From positions 2,382,501 to 2,446,500 of the forward strand of contig NZ_JBEWXT010000001.1 of assembly GCF_040538665.1 (NCBI RefSeq): DNA of 64,000 bases. Direction: 5' to 3'. Below, piece by piece: positions 46,634-51,678 of this stretch (within the stretch, counting starts at the first letter, position 1; each line of letters begins with the position of its first letter). The notes under the pieces are model-generated. The model searched no databases, had not been told where the DNA came from, and worked only from the letters and a program-made list of their open reading frames with translations. This stretch comes from Aureibaculum sp. 2308TA14-22. Lineage in GTDB: Bacteria; Bacteroidota; Bacteroidia; Flavobacteriales; Flavobacteriaceae. The position numbers were made by a program, and so were the translations under genes.

Positions 46634-47410
46634 TTAAAATAATTTAGTGTTTAAACTGCGTAATTTAATGGCAGTCAATACTTTTTTGGTGTATAACGGA
46701 AAATCTGCATTTTGTATCCATGAGTAATAGCCTTTGTCTTTTTCTAACACATCGGCTACTTTTTTTCCTTTATACTTACCAAAGGTAAAAATTTCTTCGT
46801 CTTTTTCATTAAACATAATAAAACCTGCAAAATCAGCTCGTTTTTTATGCGAAGAAAACTCATGTAAAAACTTTACATCATTTTCTAAATCGTCATATTT
46901 ATCTAATTGAGCTTTTAAAATTTCGTAGGTAGCAATGGTATCTGCCTCTGCCGAATGTGCATTTTCTAAATCCTTATCGCAATAATATTTATACGCTGCA
47001 CTTAATGTACGTTGTTCTTTTTTATGATAAATAACTTGCACATCAACCCCTACTCTATTCTTCATATCAAAATCAATACCAACCCGTAAAAATTCTTCAG
47101 CTAATAGCGGAATATCAAACCGATTCGAGTTAAAACCAGCCAAATCACAACCTTCAATTAATTGATTAATTTCTTTGGCCAATTCTGCAAACGTGGGTTC
47201 GGTTACTACTTTTTCATTATCAATACCGTGTATGGCAACAACCTCAGCAGGTATTTCCATTTCAGGGTTTACCAACCAGGTTTTACTTTCTTTATTTCCG
47301 TTTGGGTGTACTTTTAAAATGGAAATTTCTACAATACGGTCTTTGGCAATGTTAATGCCTGTCGTCTCTAAATCAAAAAATACAATAGGTTTATTTAGTT
47401 TTAATTTCAT
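46634..47410 (-). CDS. DnaQ-like 3'-5' exonuclease (DEDDh)
   Basis: A 258-aa exonuclease. ExoI FFDLETTGI (Asp-Glu), ExoII GFNSNRFDIPLL (Asp), ExoIII HSAEADTIATYEIL (His-x4-Asp) are all present, giving a complete DEDDh site. The C-terminal part (FTFGKYKGKKVADVL, YYSWIQNADFPLYTKKV) is the small domain found in exonuclease X-like proteins. It may process DNA or RNA ends; not the replicative proofreading subunit, judging by the tail. A palindrome and -10 element sit upstream. Confidence 0.92.
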   Translation of the reverse strand: MKLKLNKPIVFFDLETTGINIAKDRIVEISILKVHPNGNKESKTWLVNPEMEIPAEVVAIHGIDNEKVVTEPTFAELAKEINQLIEGCDLAGFNSNRFDIPLLAEEFLRVGIDFDMKNRVGVDVQVIYHKKEQRTLSAAYKYYCDKDLENAHSAEADTIATYEILKAQLDKYDDLENDVKFLHEFSSHKKRADFAGFIMFNEKDEEIFTFGKYKGKKVADVLEKDKGYYSWIQNADFPLYTKKVLTAIKLRSLNTKLF

Positions 47411-47579: not shown

Positions 47580-49628
47580 ATGAATAAAGAAAGAGCAATT
47601 ACATATAGTTTATTATCTCACATTAGAAATAATGGAACGTTGGCAAAAGGTCCAATTGATATTTTTATTCCTTTGATTAAGCGAACCCTATCTAAAATGA
47701 ATATGGAAGGAATATTTAAAGGAAAAAGTATTTTAGAAATAAAAGCGGCAAGTGAAAAACTCTATCAAATTGATTTTCCTATCCCTGTCTTAAATAAAAT
47801 ACTGACACAAATTTGCAATGAAATAAATTCAGATGAAATGGAACATTTCATTTTATATCAAGATGGTTCCTTCGCTCTAAATCAATATTCTTTTACTGAT
47901 TATGAGGATTTAATTGAAACTCAAACAAATGAAATCAATGAACTGGAAGATTTGTTTAAAGATTTTTGTAATTCTTCCGAGTTGGAGATTGAAAATAGTA
48001 ATTCAATATTCAATTTTATTGAAAAAAATAAATTTACTCTTTCAAAATACATATCACATAGTCAAGAAACAAATGCAGCTGATTATACTAAAGAAGCACA
48101 ATTCATAGATTTTTTTAAGAGATTCCCAACAATATATGACAGAATCAAAAACATCTATATAGGTTCAATTATAGCTGGGTATATAGAGTATAATTCCGAT
48201 GATGCAAAAAGAGAGATAATATTACTTCTTGATACTAATTTTATAATTGGCTTGATCGATTTAAACACACCCGAATCAACACATACTTGTAATACTTTAT
48301 TAAAAATTGCTCAACAACAAAATTTTAAAATTCGCATATTAAAAGATACAATTGAAGAAACTATTAATTTATTAGAGGCGAAAGCAGAATATTTTGACAA
48401 ATCCTTTTTACAGAGAAAAATTAATGCAGAAGATGTTTATAATGCTTGTGAGAGAAGAAATTTATCAAGAACTGATTTAGAGCGTATAGCTGACAATTTG
48501 GAAAAAACAATAGCTGAATTAGGAATTACTATTTTACATAGCACAGATAAACTGAAAAGGGAGGCAAAATATACCGATTTATATAAAGTTTTCCAAGAAG
48601 TTCGGAATTCGAAAAAATCGGCTCTTCACGATGCTGCAGCAATTCTGTACGTAAGCAAACAACGTAAAAAGAGAATTAAAGAATTTGATAAAGTAAATGC
48701 TTGGTTTGTAAATAATTCATCTTCAGTAGTTGGTGATTCAATTTTTTTAAAAAATGGTTTTCAACCAGAAACAATTAAAGCAGATGATTTATTAAATATT
48801 TTATGGTTAAGTAACCCACAAGTTAACAAATCTATAGGCACAGACGATTTAGCGGAAATTGGTTTGACTTCAGCTATTTCATTAACTTTAAGCAAGGACT
48901 TACCAAAGTCAAAAATAATTCGAGACTTAGATGACAACATACACAAATACGCTAAAGAGGAAATTAGTGATACCGATATTATTAGAGTTGCAACACGAAT
49001 TACAAATAAGCAACTAAAAAATATTGAAGAATTAAATTTACTGGCGACAAATGACAAAGAAGAATTTGTAAAAAGACTTCAAGATGAAGCGAATAGACAA
49101 AAAACAATTGAAGAAAAAAGAATTCGAAAATTAGAAGAAGTATTTAAAAATATTTCAGCAAGAACAGATGAGCTAGAAAAATCAAAGAATGAATTTCGAG
49201 AAAAATCAAAAAATATTGATTCACTTTTAAAAGAAAAGGAGTCCAAAGAGAGTGAGTTAGAAGAAAAACTACTTGTTGAACAGAATAAAAACAGAGAAAT
49301 ATTAAGGGATACTTGGTACTCGGAACAACTAACTAAGTGGAGAAGAAAAACATGGATTGAATTCTTTATTTTTGCCTTAATTTTCATTCTTGGTATTATT
49401 TATATTCTTTTTGAATCTAATTGGAATTTAAAACAAGCTATCGCCTATTTCAAAGTATTAAAAGCAAACATTATTGTAAGTGCTTTGATTTCTTTGATTC
49501 TATTTATTTGGAACTATTTTAACATCAAAACTCTTTATGCCAAATACAGGAGTCATTCTAACATTCAAAATTTCAAAAAAGGGCTGAAGATACCTGAAAA
49601 AATGAAGGAGTTGAAGAAAGCCAAATAG
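47580..49628 (+). CDS. PIN-like nuclease domain protein with coiled coil and two C-terminal membrane helices
   Basis: A 682-aa protein I do not recognise as a named family. Residues 1-130 look like a helical, possibly winged-helix, region. Residues 213-400 look PIN-like: IILLLDTNFIIGLIDL (Asp218), acidic KDTIEETINLL (Glu259/260), LHDAAAILYV (Asp351) and VNAWFVNNSS followed by GDSIFLKNGF, in the order and spacing of a PIN active site. A charged coiled coil covers about 490-575. Two membrane helices (592-611 and 629-646) end the protein with a short basic tail. No toxin/antitoxin partner is adjacent. It sits alone, opposite in strand to its neighbours, between an exonuclease and odhB. A defence or RNA-cleavage role is inference. 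Confidence 0.72.
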   Translation: MNKERAITYSLLSHIRNNGTLAKGPIDIFIPLIKRTLSKMNMEGIFKGKSILEIKAASEKLYQIDFPIPVLNKILTQICNEINSDEMEHFILYQDGSFALNQYSFTDYEDLIETQTNEINELEDLFKDFCNSSELEIENSNSIFNFIEKNKFTLSKYISHSQETNAADYTKEAQFIDFFKRFPTIYDRIKNIYIGSIIAGYIEYNSDDAKREIILLLDTNFIIGLIDLNTPESTHTCNTLLKIAQQQNFKIRILKDTIEETINLLEAKAEYFDKSFLQRKINAEDVYNACERRNLSRTDLERIADNLEKTIAELGITILHSTDKLKREAKYTDLYKVFQEVRNSKKSALHDAAAILYVSKQRKKRIKEFDKVNAWFVNNSSSVVGDSIFLKNGFQPETIKADDLLNILWLSNPQVNKSIGTDDLAEIGLTSAISLTLSKDLPKSKIIRDLDDNIHKYAKEEISDTDIIRVATRITNKQLKNIEELNLLATNDKEEFVKRLQDEANRQKTIEEKRIRKLEEVFKNISARTDELEKSKNEFREKSKNIDSLLKEKESKESELEEKLLVEQNKNREILRDTWYSEQLTKWRRKTWIEFFIFALIFILGIIYILFESNWNLKQAIAYFKVLKANIIVSALISLILFIWNYFNIKTLYAKYRSHSNIQNFKKGLKIPEKMKELKKAK

Positions 49629-49669: not shown

Positions 49670-49768
49670 CTAAAACTCCCTATCCGTATCAAAGCCCTCT
49701 AAATACTCAGCAACACGTTTTACAAACATACCACCTAAGGCACCGTTGACCACTCTATGATCATAAGA
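49670..49768 (-). pseudogene. Detached 3' copy of odhB (last 32 codons)
   Basis: On the minus strand this encodes SYDHRVVNGALGGMFVKRVA and the remainder of the E2 C-terminus through EGFDTDREF and a TAG stop. It aligns without gaps to the true odhB end (50342-50439): 87 of 97 positions identical, all 10 differences being transitions. It has no start of its own, although an open frame from the flanking element runs into it (to 49954). It includes the catalytic DHRVVNG motif. Confidence 0.9.
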
Positions 49769-49774
49769 AGTTTT

Positions 49775-49798
49775 GTCTGGTCGAGCGGAGTCGAGACC
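49775..49798. repeat. GC-rich palindromic repeat, inverted copy
   Basis: GGTCGAGCGGAGTCGAGACC (49779-49798), preceded by GTCT, is the inverse complement of the core TCTCGACTCCGCTCGA found in the direct copies at 49821 and 50303. This sequence type is common between genes in Flavobacteriaceae. It directly adjoins the detached odhB tail. Confidence 0.7.
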
Positions 49799-49820
49799 TA
49801 TTACAACGGGAATAGTGAAT

Positions 49821-49852
49821 AACCTCTCGACTCCGCTCGAGGAGACACTCTG
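49821..49852. repeat. GC-rich palindromic repeat, direct copy 1
   Basis: A 32-bp sequence built around CTCTCGACTCCGCTCGAGG, then AGACACTCTG. It is identical at 31 of 32 positions to the copy at 50303-50334. The two copies flank the GIY-YIG gene in direct orientation. Confidence 0.75.
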
Positions 49853-49930
49853 ACTCCACTTAAGAAGACATACCTTAAGGAATGACAGAAGTACAGAAGT
49901 AACGTGTCTTGATTTTCGCCTTTTAATGTT

Positions 49931-49955
49931 GTCAGGTCGAGCCTTTCGGCTCACA
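49931..49955. repeat. Related hairpin repeat near the GIY-YIG 3' end
   Basis: GTCAGGTCGAGCCTTTCGGC and following TCACA contain the hairpin GAGCC-TTTC-GGCTC; the leading GTCAGGTCGAG resembles the GTCTGGTCGAG of the inverted copy at 49775. Probably a variant of the same repeat family. Confidence 0.5.
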
Positions 49956-49980
49956 CTTAAGACAGGATTAAGTTGAGACC

Positions 49981-50298
49981 TCAGTCATTTAATTTATTAT
50001 CCGAATGACTTTCATTTCTGCACTGAGCCAGTAACTGCAATAAATCGTAATCGCCATTAGCTAAAGCTAACTTCTTTTTACCGCTCCATTTTTTTATTTT
50101 CTTTTCAAAATAAATAGCCTGATTAACATCATTGAATTCTTGATGGAAAACAACTTCAACAGGTCTTCTCTTGTAAGTAAAGCTAGATTTATTTAATCCT
50201 AAGTTATGTTCATCTAATCTTCGAGATATGTCATTGGTTATACCTGTATACAATAAACCATCATTGCATTTTAGTATATAAACGTAGTATAAATTCAT
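49981..50298 (-). CDS. GIY-YIG nuclease family protein
   Basis: A 105-aa single-domain GIY-YIG endonuclease of the small YhbQ/SLX1-like type: YYVYILKCNDGLLYTGITND (the GIY and YIG strands appear as YVY and YTG), SRRLDEHNLGLN with the catalytic Arg, RRPVEVVFHQEF, and AIYFEKKIKKWSGKKKLAL with the conserved Glu. It lies directly downstream of odhB, in the same orientation, between two copies of a 32-bp palindromic repeat. Beyond these lies a second copy of the odhB tail. Related genes occur in multiple scattered copies in Bacteroidetes. It is probably the nuclease of a small mobile element. Confidence 0.9.
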   Translation of the reverse strand: MNLYYVYILKCNDGLLYTGITNDISRRLDEHNLGLNKSSFTYKRRPVEVVFHQEFNDVNQAIYFEKKIKKWSGKKKLALANGDYDLLQLLAQCRNESHSDNKLND

Positions 50299-50302
50299 GA
50301 TA

Positions 50303-50334
50303 AACCTCTCGACTCCGCTCGAGGAGACATTCTG
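50303..50334. repeat. GC-rich palindromic repeat, direct copy 2
   Basis: Same 32-bp sequence as 49821-49852 with one change (AGACATTCTG). It lies between the odhB stop codon (7 nt away) and the GIY-YIG ATG (5 nt away), filling almost the whole intergenic gap. Confidence 0.75.
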
Positions 50335-50340
50335 TTAATT

Positions 50341-51678
50341 TTAAAACTCCCTATTCACATCAAAACTCTCCAAATATTCAGCAACACGTTTTACAAACAT
50401 ACCGCCTAAGGCACCATTGACCACTCTATGGTCATAAGAGTGAGATAAGAACATTTTATGACGTATGCCAATAAAATCGCCTTCTGAAGTTTCAATAACT
50501 GAAGGTACTTTGCGTATAGCACCTAAAGCTAAAATGGCTACCTGTGGTTGGTTTATAATGGGTGTACCCATAACACTACCAAAACCGCCTACATTGGTAA
50601 CGGTATAGGTACCGCCTTGTGTGTCGTCTGGTTTTAATTGGCTGGTTCTGGCACGTTGTGCCAAATCGTTAACCGCTTTGGTCATGCCCATTAAATTCAA
50701 TTGGTCGGCATTTTTAATTACGGGTACAATCAGGTTGCCATCCGCTAAGGCAGTTGCCATCCCTAAATTGATGTTTTTCTTTTTAATTACTTTGTCGCCA
50801 TCCACCGAAATATTTATCATCGGGTAATCTTTAATGGCTTTGGCAACGGCTTCCATAAAAATTGGGGTAAACGTAATTTTTTCGCCTTCTCTTTTTTGGA
50901 AACTGTCTTTTATCTTGTTACGCCAATTGACAATTTTGGTAACGTCAACTTCAATAAAAGACTGTACATGAGCAGAAGTCTGTATTGAATTTACCATATG
51001 CTGAGCTACCAATTTGCCCATTCTGGTCATTTCTATGATTTCATCTTGTCCATTAACCGAAACTGGAGCTACAGGCGTTGTTTTTTGAGATTGAGCAGGT
51101 GTTTTGGCTTCAACTGGCTTGGTTTGTGTAGCTTGTTGAGGCATATTTCCTCTATTTGCTACATAAGCCAATATATCATTTTTAGTAACTCTATTATCTT
51201 TCCCTGTTCCTATTATGGCTTCTAATTCCGCCATAGAAATATTTTCCTTTTTAGCAATGGTTTTTACCAAAGGAGAGTAAAATTTACCCGAAGGAGAATT
51301 CCCAACCTCAGCAACAGGTTCATTTATAGCTGTAACTTCTGCAATCGAATTTTGAATCTCAATAACTTCTTGTGGTTCTTCAATTTTTGCTTCTTGTATA
51401 GGGACTTCAACTTTTGTATCTTCAACTACTCCATTTCCTGAAATTTCAATAATGGCCAGTGTTTCTCCAACTTTTACAACGGCATCTACATCATATAACT
51501 TTTCAACCAAAACGCCTTCTACTTCACTTGGCACTTCTGAGTCTACTTTGTCAGTAGCAATCTCTACAATGGCTTCATCTAACTCAATAGTATCCCCAAC
51601 CTCTTTTAACCAAGAAGTGATGGTTGCTTCTGCAACACTTTCGCCCATTTTAGGCAATTTCAGTTCAAATTTAGCCAT
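50341..51678 (-). CDS. odhB: 2-oxo acid dehydrogenase complex E2 (dihydrolipoamide acyltransferase)
   Basis: Transfers the acyl group from lipoyl-lysine to CoA in a 2-oxo acid dehydrogenase complex. A 445-aa protein: an N-terminal lipoyl domain (EIATDKVDSEVPSEVEG, lipoyl Lys44), an acidic linker, a peripheral-subunit-binding domain (FYSPLVKTIAKKENISMAEL) and the catalytic domain with SYDHRVVNGALGG (catalytic His). Whether it serves the 2-oxoglutarate or branched-chain complex is uncertain, so the symbol is tentative. The last 32 codons have a second copy 0.6 kb downstream, so this 3' end may have been replaced. The heme gene hemF lies 88 nt upstream. Confidence 0.93.
   Translation of the reverse strand: MAKFELKLPKMGESVAEATITSWLKEVGDTIELDEAIVEIATDKVDSEVPSEVEGVLVEKLYDVDAVVKVGETLAIIEISGNGVVEDTKVEVPIQEAKIEEPQEVIEIQNSIAEVTAINEPVAEVGNSPSGKFYSPLVKTIAKKENISMAELEAIIGTGKDNRVTKNDILAYVANRGNMPQQATQTKPVEAKTPAQSQKTTPVAPVSVNGQDEIIEMTRMGKLVAQHMVNSIQTSAHVQSFIEVDVTKIVNWRNKIKDSFQKREGEKITFTPIFMEAVAKAIKDYPMINISVDGDKVIKKKNINLGMATALADGNLIVPVIKNADQLNLMGMTKAVNDLAQRARTSQLKPDDTQGGTYTVTNVGGFGSVMGTPIINQPQVAILALGAIRKVPSVIETSEGDFIGIRHKMFLSHSYDHRVVNGALGGMFVKRVAEYLESFDVNREF

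Follow-up and report, generated by a model that had tools for sequence, protein, structure and literature searches.

A duplicated odhB gene end beside a GIY-YIG nuclease gene in Aureibaculum: probable recombination at a palindromic element

The window analysed here is a stretch of 64,000 nucleotides (nt) from Aureibaculum sp. 2308TA14-22 (contig NZ_JBEWXT010000001.1, positions 2,382,501 to 2,446,500). In it odhB, the gene for the dihydrolipoyl acyltransferase E2, is followed by a small element with a GIY-YIG nuclease gene and palindromic repeats and, beyond this element, by a detached copy of the odhB 3' end. The structure is best read as a recombination scar at the element, by which odhB with its present tail (T) and the element were joined to a region carrying the detached tail (D) and a gene of 682 amino acids (aa); the probability of this reading is put at about 0.58. 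The T side and the D side most likely come from two lineages. This reading is based on the single tail in all relatives examined, the protein constraint on the differences between T and D, the junction of D at the end of a palindrome, a mirror-image case at a methyltransferase gene (locus L109), the rarity of the 682-aa gene, and a relative (genome G001) in which an element lies near odhB with no second tail found.

The odhB locus and its two tails

The features of the locus are as follows.
50341..51678, minus strand: odhB (E2, dihydrolipoyl acyltransferase), an intact gene ending in tail T, the active one; 86-87 % identical at the aa level to G010, G008 and G007
50341..50439, minus strand: tail T, the last 33 codons of odhB, TAA stop included
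49769..50340, minus strand: the whole element between T and D, 572 bp, consisting of a GIY-YIG unit and a REPIN-like unit
50304..50329, minus strand: palindrome P1, TGTCTCCTCGAGCGGAGTCGAGAGGT, 5 nt ahead of the GIY-YIG start codon
49981..50298, minus strand (that of odhB): GIY-YIG nuclease gene, 105 aa, Pfam GIY-YIG at 65.8 bits
49930..49982, minus strand: degenerate palindrome P2 with the end GCTCGACCTGACA, closing the GIY-YIG unit, z -3.2
49822..49847, minus strand: palindrome P3, an identical copy of P1, opening the non-autonomous REPIN-like unit
49774..49799, minus strand: palindrome P4, AGGTCTCGACTCCGCTCGACCAGACA, its outer end 5 nt from D
49670..49768, minus strand (odhB orientation): tail D, the detached odhB 3' end, 33 in-frame codons with a TAG stop

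An earlier note on this DNA had described a duplication of the odhB tail around the GIY-YIG gene and the palindromes, and its coordinates hold: positions 49671-49768 and 50342-50439 form a gapless direct repeat of 98 nt with 88 identities (90 %; blastn E 1e-28). Across all 33 codons, including the stop, 88 of 99 nt are identical and each of the 11 differences is a transition. The similarity begins 6 nt ahead of the DHR codons, not 8 nt as given before, and ends at the stop codon. The picture of an intact odhB with a displaced tail beside the element was borne out as well, D lying 5 nt from the element's outer palindrome. A duplicate produced during assembly would be an unlikely origin of the two tails because they differ by 10 %.

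Relatives without the duplication, as the earlier note had envisaged, were found throughout. The best-scoring odhB loci among 59 other genomes searched comprised 29 relatives' loci, and all 29 had a single tail when 99-nt stretches with at least 55 matches to T or D were sought with flanks of up to 1.5 kb. As a control, none of 87 split points across these odhB loci gave a direct repeat of at least 60 nt at 75 % or more. In the stretches fetched, only one of the 29 loci, that of G001, had a GIY-YIG match at E 1e-10.

When the GIY-YIG protein was aligned with others, four sequences in all, its residues Y4, Y17, G19, R27 and E65 proved invariant; the solved structures related to it are 1zg2 and 1ywl. 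The layout around P1 is similar in many relatives, and a P2-like ending was seen by eye in G001 too. The hairpin of P1 by itself is not unusual (z 0.2); the inverted pair P3-P4 folds into a single long hairpin of -22.3 kcal/mol (z -7.0).

The 11 differences between T and D fall in nine codons, six of them changed synonymously and three nonsynonymously, and all three D-specific residues are attested at those positions among the tails of the 29 relatives. When random transitions were applied with T as the starting sequence, such constraint had a P of 0.00025 if all 11 changes were neutral and of 0.012 if six were. Judged from the sequences, T and D look like two alleles of odhB that probably diverged while the protein was under constraint, and not like a tandem copy in decay. 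D most likely served as a working odhB end through much of the time since the two tails split, an argument against tandem duplication at the locus.

A GIY-YIG gene among palindromes in the Flavobacteriaceae

At E 1e-6, 16 of the 17 genomes in the genus, the window's own among them, have a homologue of the GIY-YIG protein; at E 1e-12 so do 83 of the 199 genomes searched across the family, with a spread that is patchy by genus. The element shows the anatomy of a REP-like family, a GIY-YIG gene amid palindromes with the outer ends TGTC...GACA. A first set of 129 loci (10 and 29 from homologue searches, 40 fetched stretches and 50 named loci) yielded 122 distinct loci with sufficient flanks. Comparison of the 130 nt on each side of the gene gave an exact inverted match of at least 12 nt at 59 of these 122 loci, as against one of 610 control intervals of the same size from the same loci.

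The palindrome TCGAGCGNAGTCGAGA is present in 96 of the 199 genomes, and the reversed control pattern occurred once in all of them; among the places listed, many sites are inverted pairs about 30-70 nt apart. Per genome, the median palindrome count was 12.5 where a close homologue was present (E 1e-33 or better; 36 genomes), 1 where the match was weaker (47 genomes) and 0 where there was no match at E 1e-12 (116 genomes). The difference between close-homologue and no-match genomes had a Mann-Whitney P of 4e-15, a value in which independence is overstated, the genomes being related. It is on the inverted matches (59/122 against 1/610) and the median counts (12.5 against 0) that the association of palindromes with GIY-YIG genes in the recombination-scar reading rests. 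By its sequence the element is a member of a system like that of repetitive extragenic palindromic (REP) sequences, with a GIY-YIG gene among the palindromes and a patchy distribution in the Flavobacteriaceae.

The window's own genome holds 17 palindrome sites, some of them as inverted pairs. The 17 loci L037-L053, which include the window element three times, were checked for gene-end copies beside palindromes that lack a GIY-YIG gene; L042 alone gave a hit, a paralogue-like pair at 63 %. The same genome has another solitary GIY-YIG gene (L002, G000:C1:2948273-2948497) with trpC-like and trpF-like neighbours, named from sequence, and a TGCTGAACACGTTTCAGCA palindrome before the gene. In three genomes GIY-YIG elements occur at two positions among similar genes (L291, L292, L103), judged from sequence to encode an aldehyde dehydrogenase, a short-chain dehydrogenase and a RidA-like protein. 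Distant homologues are found in Chloroflexi, Treponema, proteobacteria and others (L194-L198, L200, L202), and near several of these GIY-YIG genes repeats edged by TGTCAT/ATGAC were noticed by eye.

Gene-end copies at other protein genes

Close and distant homologues together gave 185 loci, 56 of them added to the first set; after removal of nine identical and four short-flank loci, 172 distinct loci were screened at the protein level for the end of a flanking gene on the far side of the GIY-YIG gene. Tandem paralogues (L113, L201, L269, L277) and repeat or short low-value matches (L166, L188, L251, L280) were set aside. Nucleotide screens returned short, weak direct repeats, e.g. at L134, L145, L158 and L244, none of which was a gene-end copy in the protein screen. 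A possible 28-nt head copy shared by L085 and L154 (E 0.001) lies within a paralogue family and was excluded from the count.

One locus besides the window had a gene-end copy. L109 (G072:C1:1956621-1956917) is a mirror-image case, in which a 5' portion of a methyltransferase gene, some 25 codons long, lies upstream of the element and the intact gene starts past it. The aligned end of the partial copy is the base just before the element's TGTC, and in both the window and L109 the truncated copy meets the element at, or at most 5 nt from, the palindrome. In G301, the only other genome of that genus in the set, the fetched stretch has a single methyltransferase start.

Tail duplication is not supported as a habit of this element family, with two cases in 172 distinct loci; the earlier note had itself named this comparison as one that could tell against its model.

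Elements beside E2 genes and the region beyond D

Two genomes have the element downstream of an undivided E2 gene. The odhB of G001 is followed, after about 1.1 kb and at a contig end, by the start of a GIY-YIG gene with a similar palindrome, and the remainder of such a gene is found at another contig end, ahead of an exonuclease-like gene; the gene (L289, L290) is split by an apparent insertion sequence, and the two contig ends presumably form one locus. A second odhB tail was not found in the available sequence around both ends. In G390, of another genus (L246/L302), the palindrome lies about 30 nt and the GIY-YIG gene about 95 nt past the stop codon of an E2 paralogue, and there is no tail copy. 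Layouts of these kinds could be the source of a strand that carries a gene end together with the element.

On the far side of D the window has two further genes.
47580..49628, plus strand: 682-aa gene beside D, convergent, its end 41 nt from D
46634..47410, minus strand: exonuclease-like gene, name judged from sequence

The 682-aa gene occurs in one of the 17 genomes of the genus, the window's own, and, with two candidates scored in each genome, in four of 395 across the family, again counting the window's; no family above the cut-off was found for it in Pfam, NCBIfam or PADLOC. It is likely to be a recent arrival beside D. The exonuclease-like gene comes after odhB in several relatives, and homology to relatives restarts only ahead of it, at about 47475. 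A plasmid or phage as the vehicle was considered and found no support: there was no plasmid match at E 1e-10, and 11 phage records at E 1e-8 gave matches below 80 % of the query.

A sister family at tRNA genes

A solitary GIY-YIG gene of another kind in the window's genome (G000:C1:432193-432480; L005, L203, L303) immediately precedes tRNA-Asn, and its other side bears the truncated start of a tRNA-Asn. Relatives of its protein were found in 37 of the 199 family genomes at E 1e-10. ARAGORN detected a tRNA at 26 of the 30 loci examined (27 with L068, from a separate search), and at 24 of the 27 the same tRNA recurred in a second copy at E 0.05, including L214, where this copy is a full tandem one, and L228, where the query is the remnant itself. 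Short matches alone are weak, as a control with tRNAs of other isotypes gave them in 93 of 570; this control was used in place of tRNA genes far from GIY-YIG genes, of which there were two only, one with a partial copy, and which were discarded.

Longer copies were found as well. In the tandem array L211 (G147), nt 41-75 of tRNA-Met follow each of five GIY-YIG genes at 94-100 %; exact copies of nt 1-22 of tRNA-Arg are present in L216, L218, L219 and L221, and L231 has a tRNA-Pro copy reaching up to nt 1-55 at 83-86 %. At most of L205-L232 one neighbour of the GIY-YIG gene is an intact tRNA (Asn, Met, Arg, Pro, Phe, Asp or Val) and the truncated copy lies on the opposite side. The remnant is marked by a palindrome of about 16-19 nt at the former D loop, anticodon loop or variable loop region (by eye at 22 loci, imperfect in L214). 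An array of GIY-YIG genes was also seen in G174.

Occupied and empty sites can be compared beside odhA in 17 loci of the genus. Three of them have a GIY-YIG gene before tRNA-Asn (G000, G013 and G001) and ten have tRNA-Asn without one; at one further locus the tRNA is on the other strand, and three have no tRNA. In the empty loci of G008 and G010 a leader, TATATTTGCA...TTAGAGAAATCTAA, continues directly into the intact tRNA. The same leader, TATATTTGCA...TTAGAGAAATCTAA, leads into the remnant in the window's genome, where the intact tRNA is found behind the nuclease gene. Because the leader enters the remnant when the site is occupied and the intact tRNA when it is empty, the host gene appears, from this comparison of loci, to have gained a new end together with the nuclease gene. 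The same picture would result from unequal crossing-over or from the Campbell-like integration of a circle, so that any part of the enzyme is presumptive here as well. The proposal in the earlier note that a GIY-YIG element brought its host gene a new end has an apparent counterpart in this tRNA-associated family, including its member in the window's own genome, and fails as a general rule for the family of the odhB element with its two loci in 172; the tRNA-associated family is the one that fits the idea of a restored gene end better.

Comparison with known systems

REPIN-RAYT systems consist of pairs of inverted short palindromes dispersed in a genome, with a longer unit that carries a Y1 transposase gene. 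The system in the window likewise has dispersed inverted palindrome pairs and a longer, enzyme-carrying unit; its enzyme is a GIY-YIG protein and not a Y1 (HUH) transposase. Pfam showed only GIY-YIG in the element's gene; for the Y1 transposase, the rest of the genome was not searched. Ssn of Neisseria is reportedly a small GIY-YIG protein that cuts single-stranded repeat DNA, has many NTS repeats as partners and affects transformation, and it serves here as a lead only. The element in the window resembles this description in its small protein with a GIY-YIG domain and in the many copies of a partner repeat.

The tRNA-associated elements, one of which is in the window's genome, share with the odhB element a partial copy of a neighbouring gene beyond the nuclease gene and a palindrome at the break. 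They differ from it in belonging to another GIY-YIG clade (24 % identity), in having tRNA hosts and in showing the partial copy in most loci examined. Literature searches turned up, among the hits listed, no account of this bacterial arrangement and no paper pairing GIY-YIG with 'repetitive extragenic palindromic', in a coverage that left out most subscription papers and did not include bioRxiv preprints as such.

A close anatomical parallel is found in fungal mitochondria. In Glomus, the mitochondrial atp6, atp9, cox2 and nad3 have an inserted C-terminal end, an endonuclease open reading frame (ORF) and the displaced native end downstream (PMC3630166). The enzyme of the atp9 mobile ORF (mORF) is a GIY-YIG protein, the atp6 case of Allomyces is named by the authors as the first reported, and the mORFs are read as probable horizontal transfers by the mobile ORF (PMC3630166). 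The odhB locus resembles them in having a predicted endonuclease ORF between the functional gene end and the displaced copy. The mORFs are mitochondrial, whereas the element in the window is bacterial, has REP-like palindromes and belongs to a family in which nearly all members examined are without a gene-end copy. The gene-end anatomy is thus already known outside bacteria.

Origin of the duplicated tail

By the recombination-scar reading, odhB-T and the element downstream of its stop codon would come from one lineage, and D, the 682-aa gene and the downstream region from another. The event would have started with a break in odhB, or with an incoming strand that the GIY-YIG nuclease cut back at the palindrome. 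The odhB side would then have been repaired by homology, through ordinary homologous recombination, and the other side by non-homologous joining of the outer palindrome end to mid-odhB, with the outcome that odhB is whole and the tail of the other allele is left downstream. A nuclease that cuts at the foot of the palindrome, on the incoming strand or on the chromosome, would make such an end, and the nuclease may have had this part in the odhB event. A cut at the DHR codons would serve too; nothing found points to odhB as the site, and the palindromes are the frequent companions of the gene.

Several results weigh against this reading. The constraint test is not significant if few of the changes were neutral (P 0.06 for four, 0.12 for three), P running from 0.00025 to 0.12 by the number of neutral changes. 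In line with the earlier note, the tails do not look like a simple tandem duplication, since the differences between them keep the protein constraint. Over 96 nt the tail of G001 is identical to T at 82 positions and to D at 74, and in a sliding window the 3' third of odhB leaned to G001. The idea of T as a tract from a G001-like donor was dropped, as the sites that separate G001 from G010, G008 and G007 score T and D alike (6 to 2 each) and no significant breakpoint was found inside odhB (permutation P 0.62). A foreign origin of T is not established, since neither informative sites nor breakpoint test separates the tails. Of the earlier claim that the element brought its own tail and pushed the old one downstream, the two alleles, the intact gene and the displaced tail stand as far as the constraint test reaches; either T or D may be the newcomer. 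The GIY-YIG gene of the window is not among the 59 with an inverted match, its longest exact one being 7 nt because P2 is degenerate, and at least five palindromes occur in 16 of the 116 genomes without a GIY-YIG match. Gene-end copies, at two of 172 loci, are rare in this element type, and a chance joining therefore needs no nuclease.

Such a joining is the essence of the first alternative, an anchored illegitimate recombination after DNA uptake with homology on one side and a random join on the other, in which the palindrome is a mere weak spot and the nuclease is uninvolved. It requires no special enzyme and agrees with the rarity of the copies (2/172) and with the result that neither T nor D stood out as the newcomer; both protein-gene breaks, few as two cases are, lie at or at most 5 nt from an element end, a position for which random joining would have no preference, and this explanation is considered unlikely.

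Somewhat more doubtful still is true homing, in which the GIY-YIG enzyme cuts odhB at the DHR codons, the replacement tail carried by the element restores the gene and the element spreads to empty odhB alleles. The anatomy of the fungal mORFs, the GIY-YIG gene between truncated and intact tRNA in the same genome with empty sites in congeners, and the elements lying about 1.1 kb past odhB in G001 and some 30 nt past the E2 paralogue stop in G390 are all in keeping with it. Against homing stand the gene-end copy at only two of the 172 distinct loci, the fact that the recurrent partner sequence of the gene is the palindrome and not odhB, and the failure to find a second case at a DHR site among the loci examined. 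A local tandem duplication of the odhB tail with later insertion of the element between the copies is very improbable: direct repeats do flank the element, and T and D match each other (88/99) better than any of the 29 relatives matches one of them (at most 85/99), but D has kept its frame, its stop codon and only orthologue-attested residues, which is unlikely for a long-dead copy (P 0.012 with six neutral changes, 0.00025 with 11), and the similarity ends at the stop codon.

Beyond the recombination scar at odhB, a wider and more tentative proposal may be made. Minimal bacterial GIY-YIG elements might insert at a palindrome-marked break in a gene and supply it with a new end, the old end staying behind as a truncated remnant. 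Their usual hosts would be tRNA genes, in arrays, and protein genes, such as the odhB tail and the methyltransferase head, would be rarer, the palindromes being footprints of the enzymes.

Implications

If true, very small nuclease genes would exchange end segments of central genes across bacterial lineages and leave these genes unbroken, in parallel to the role proposed for endonuclease ORFs in fungal mitochondria. The abundant palindromic repeats of the Flavobacteriaceae would gain a partner enzyme and a means of spread. In its tRNA form the idea is directly testable, as occupied and empty sites are present within one genus.

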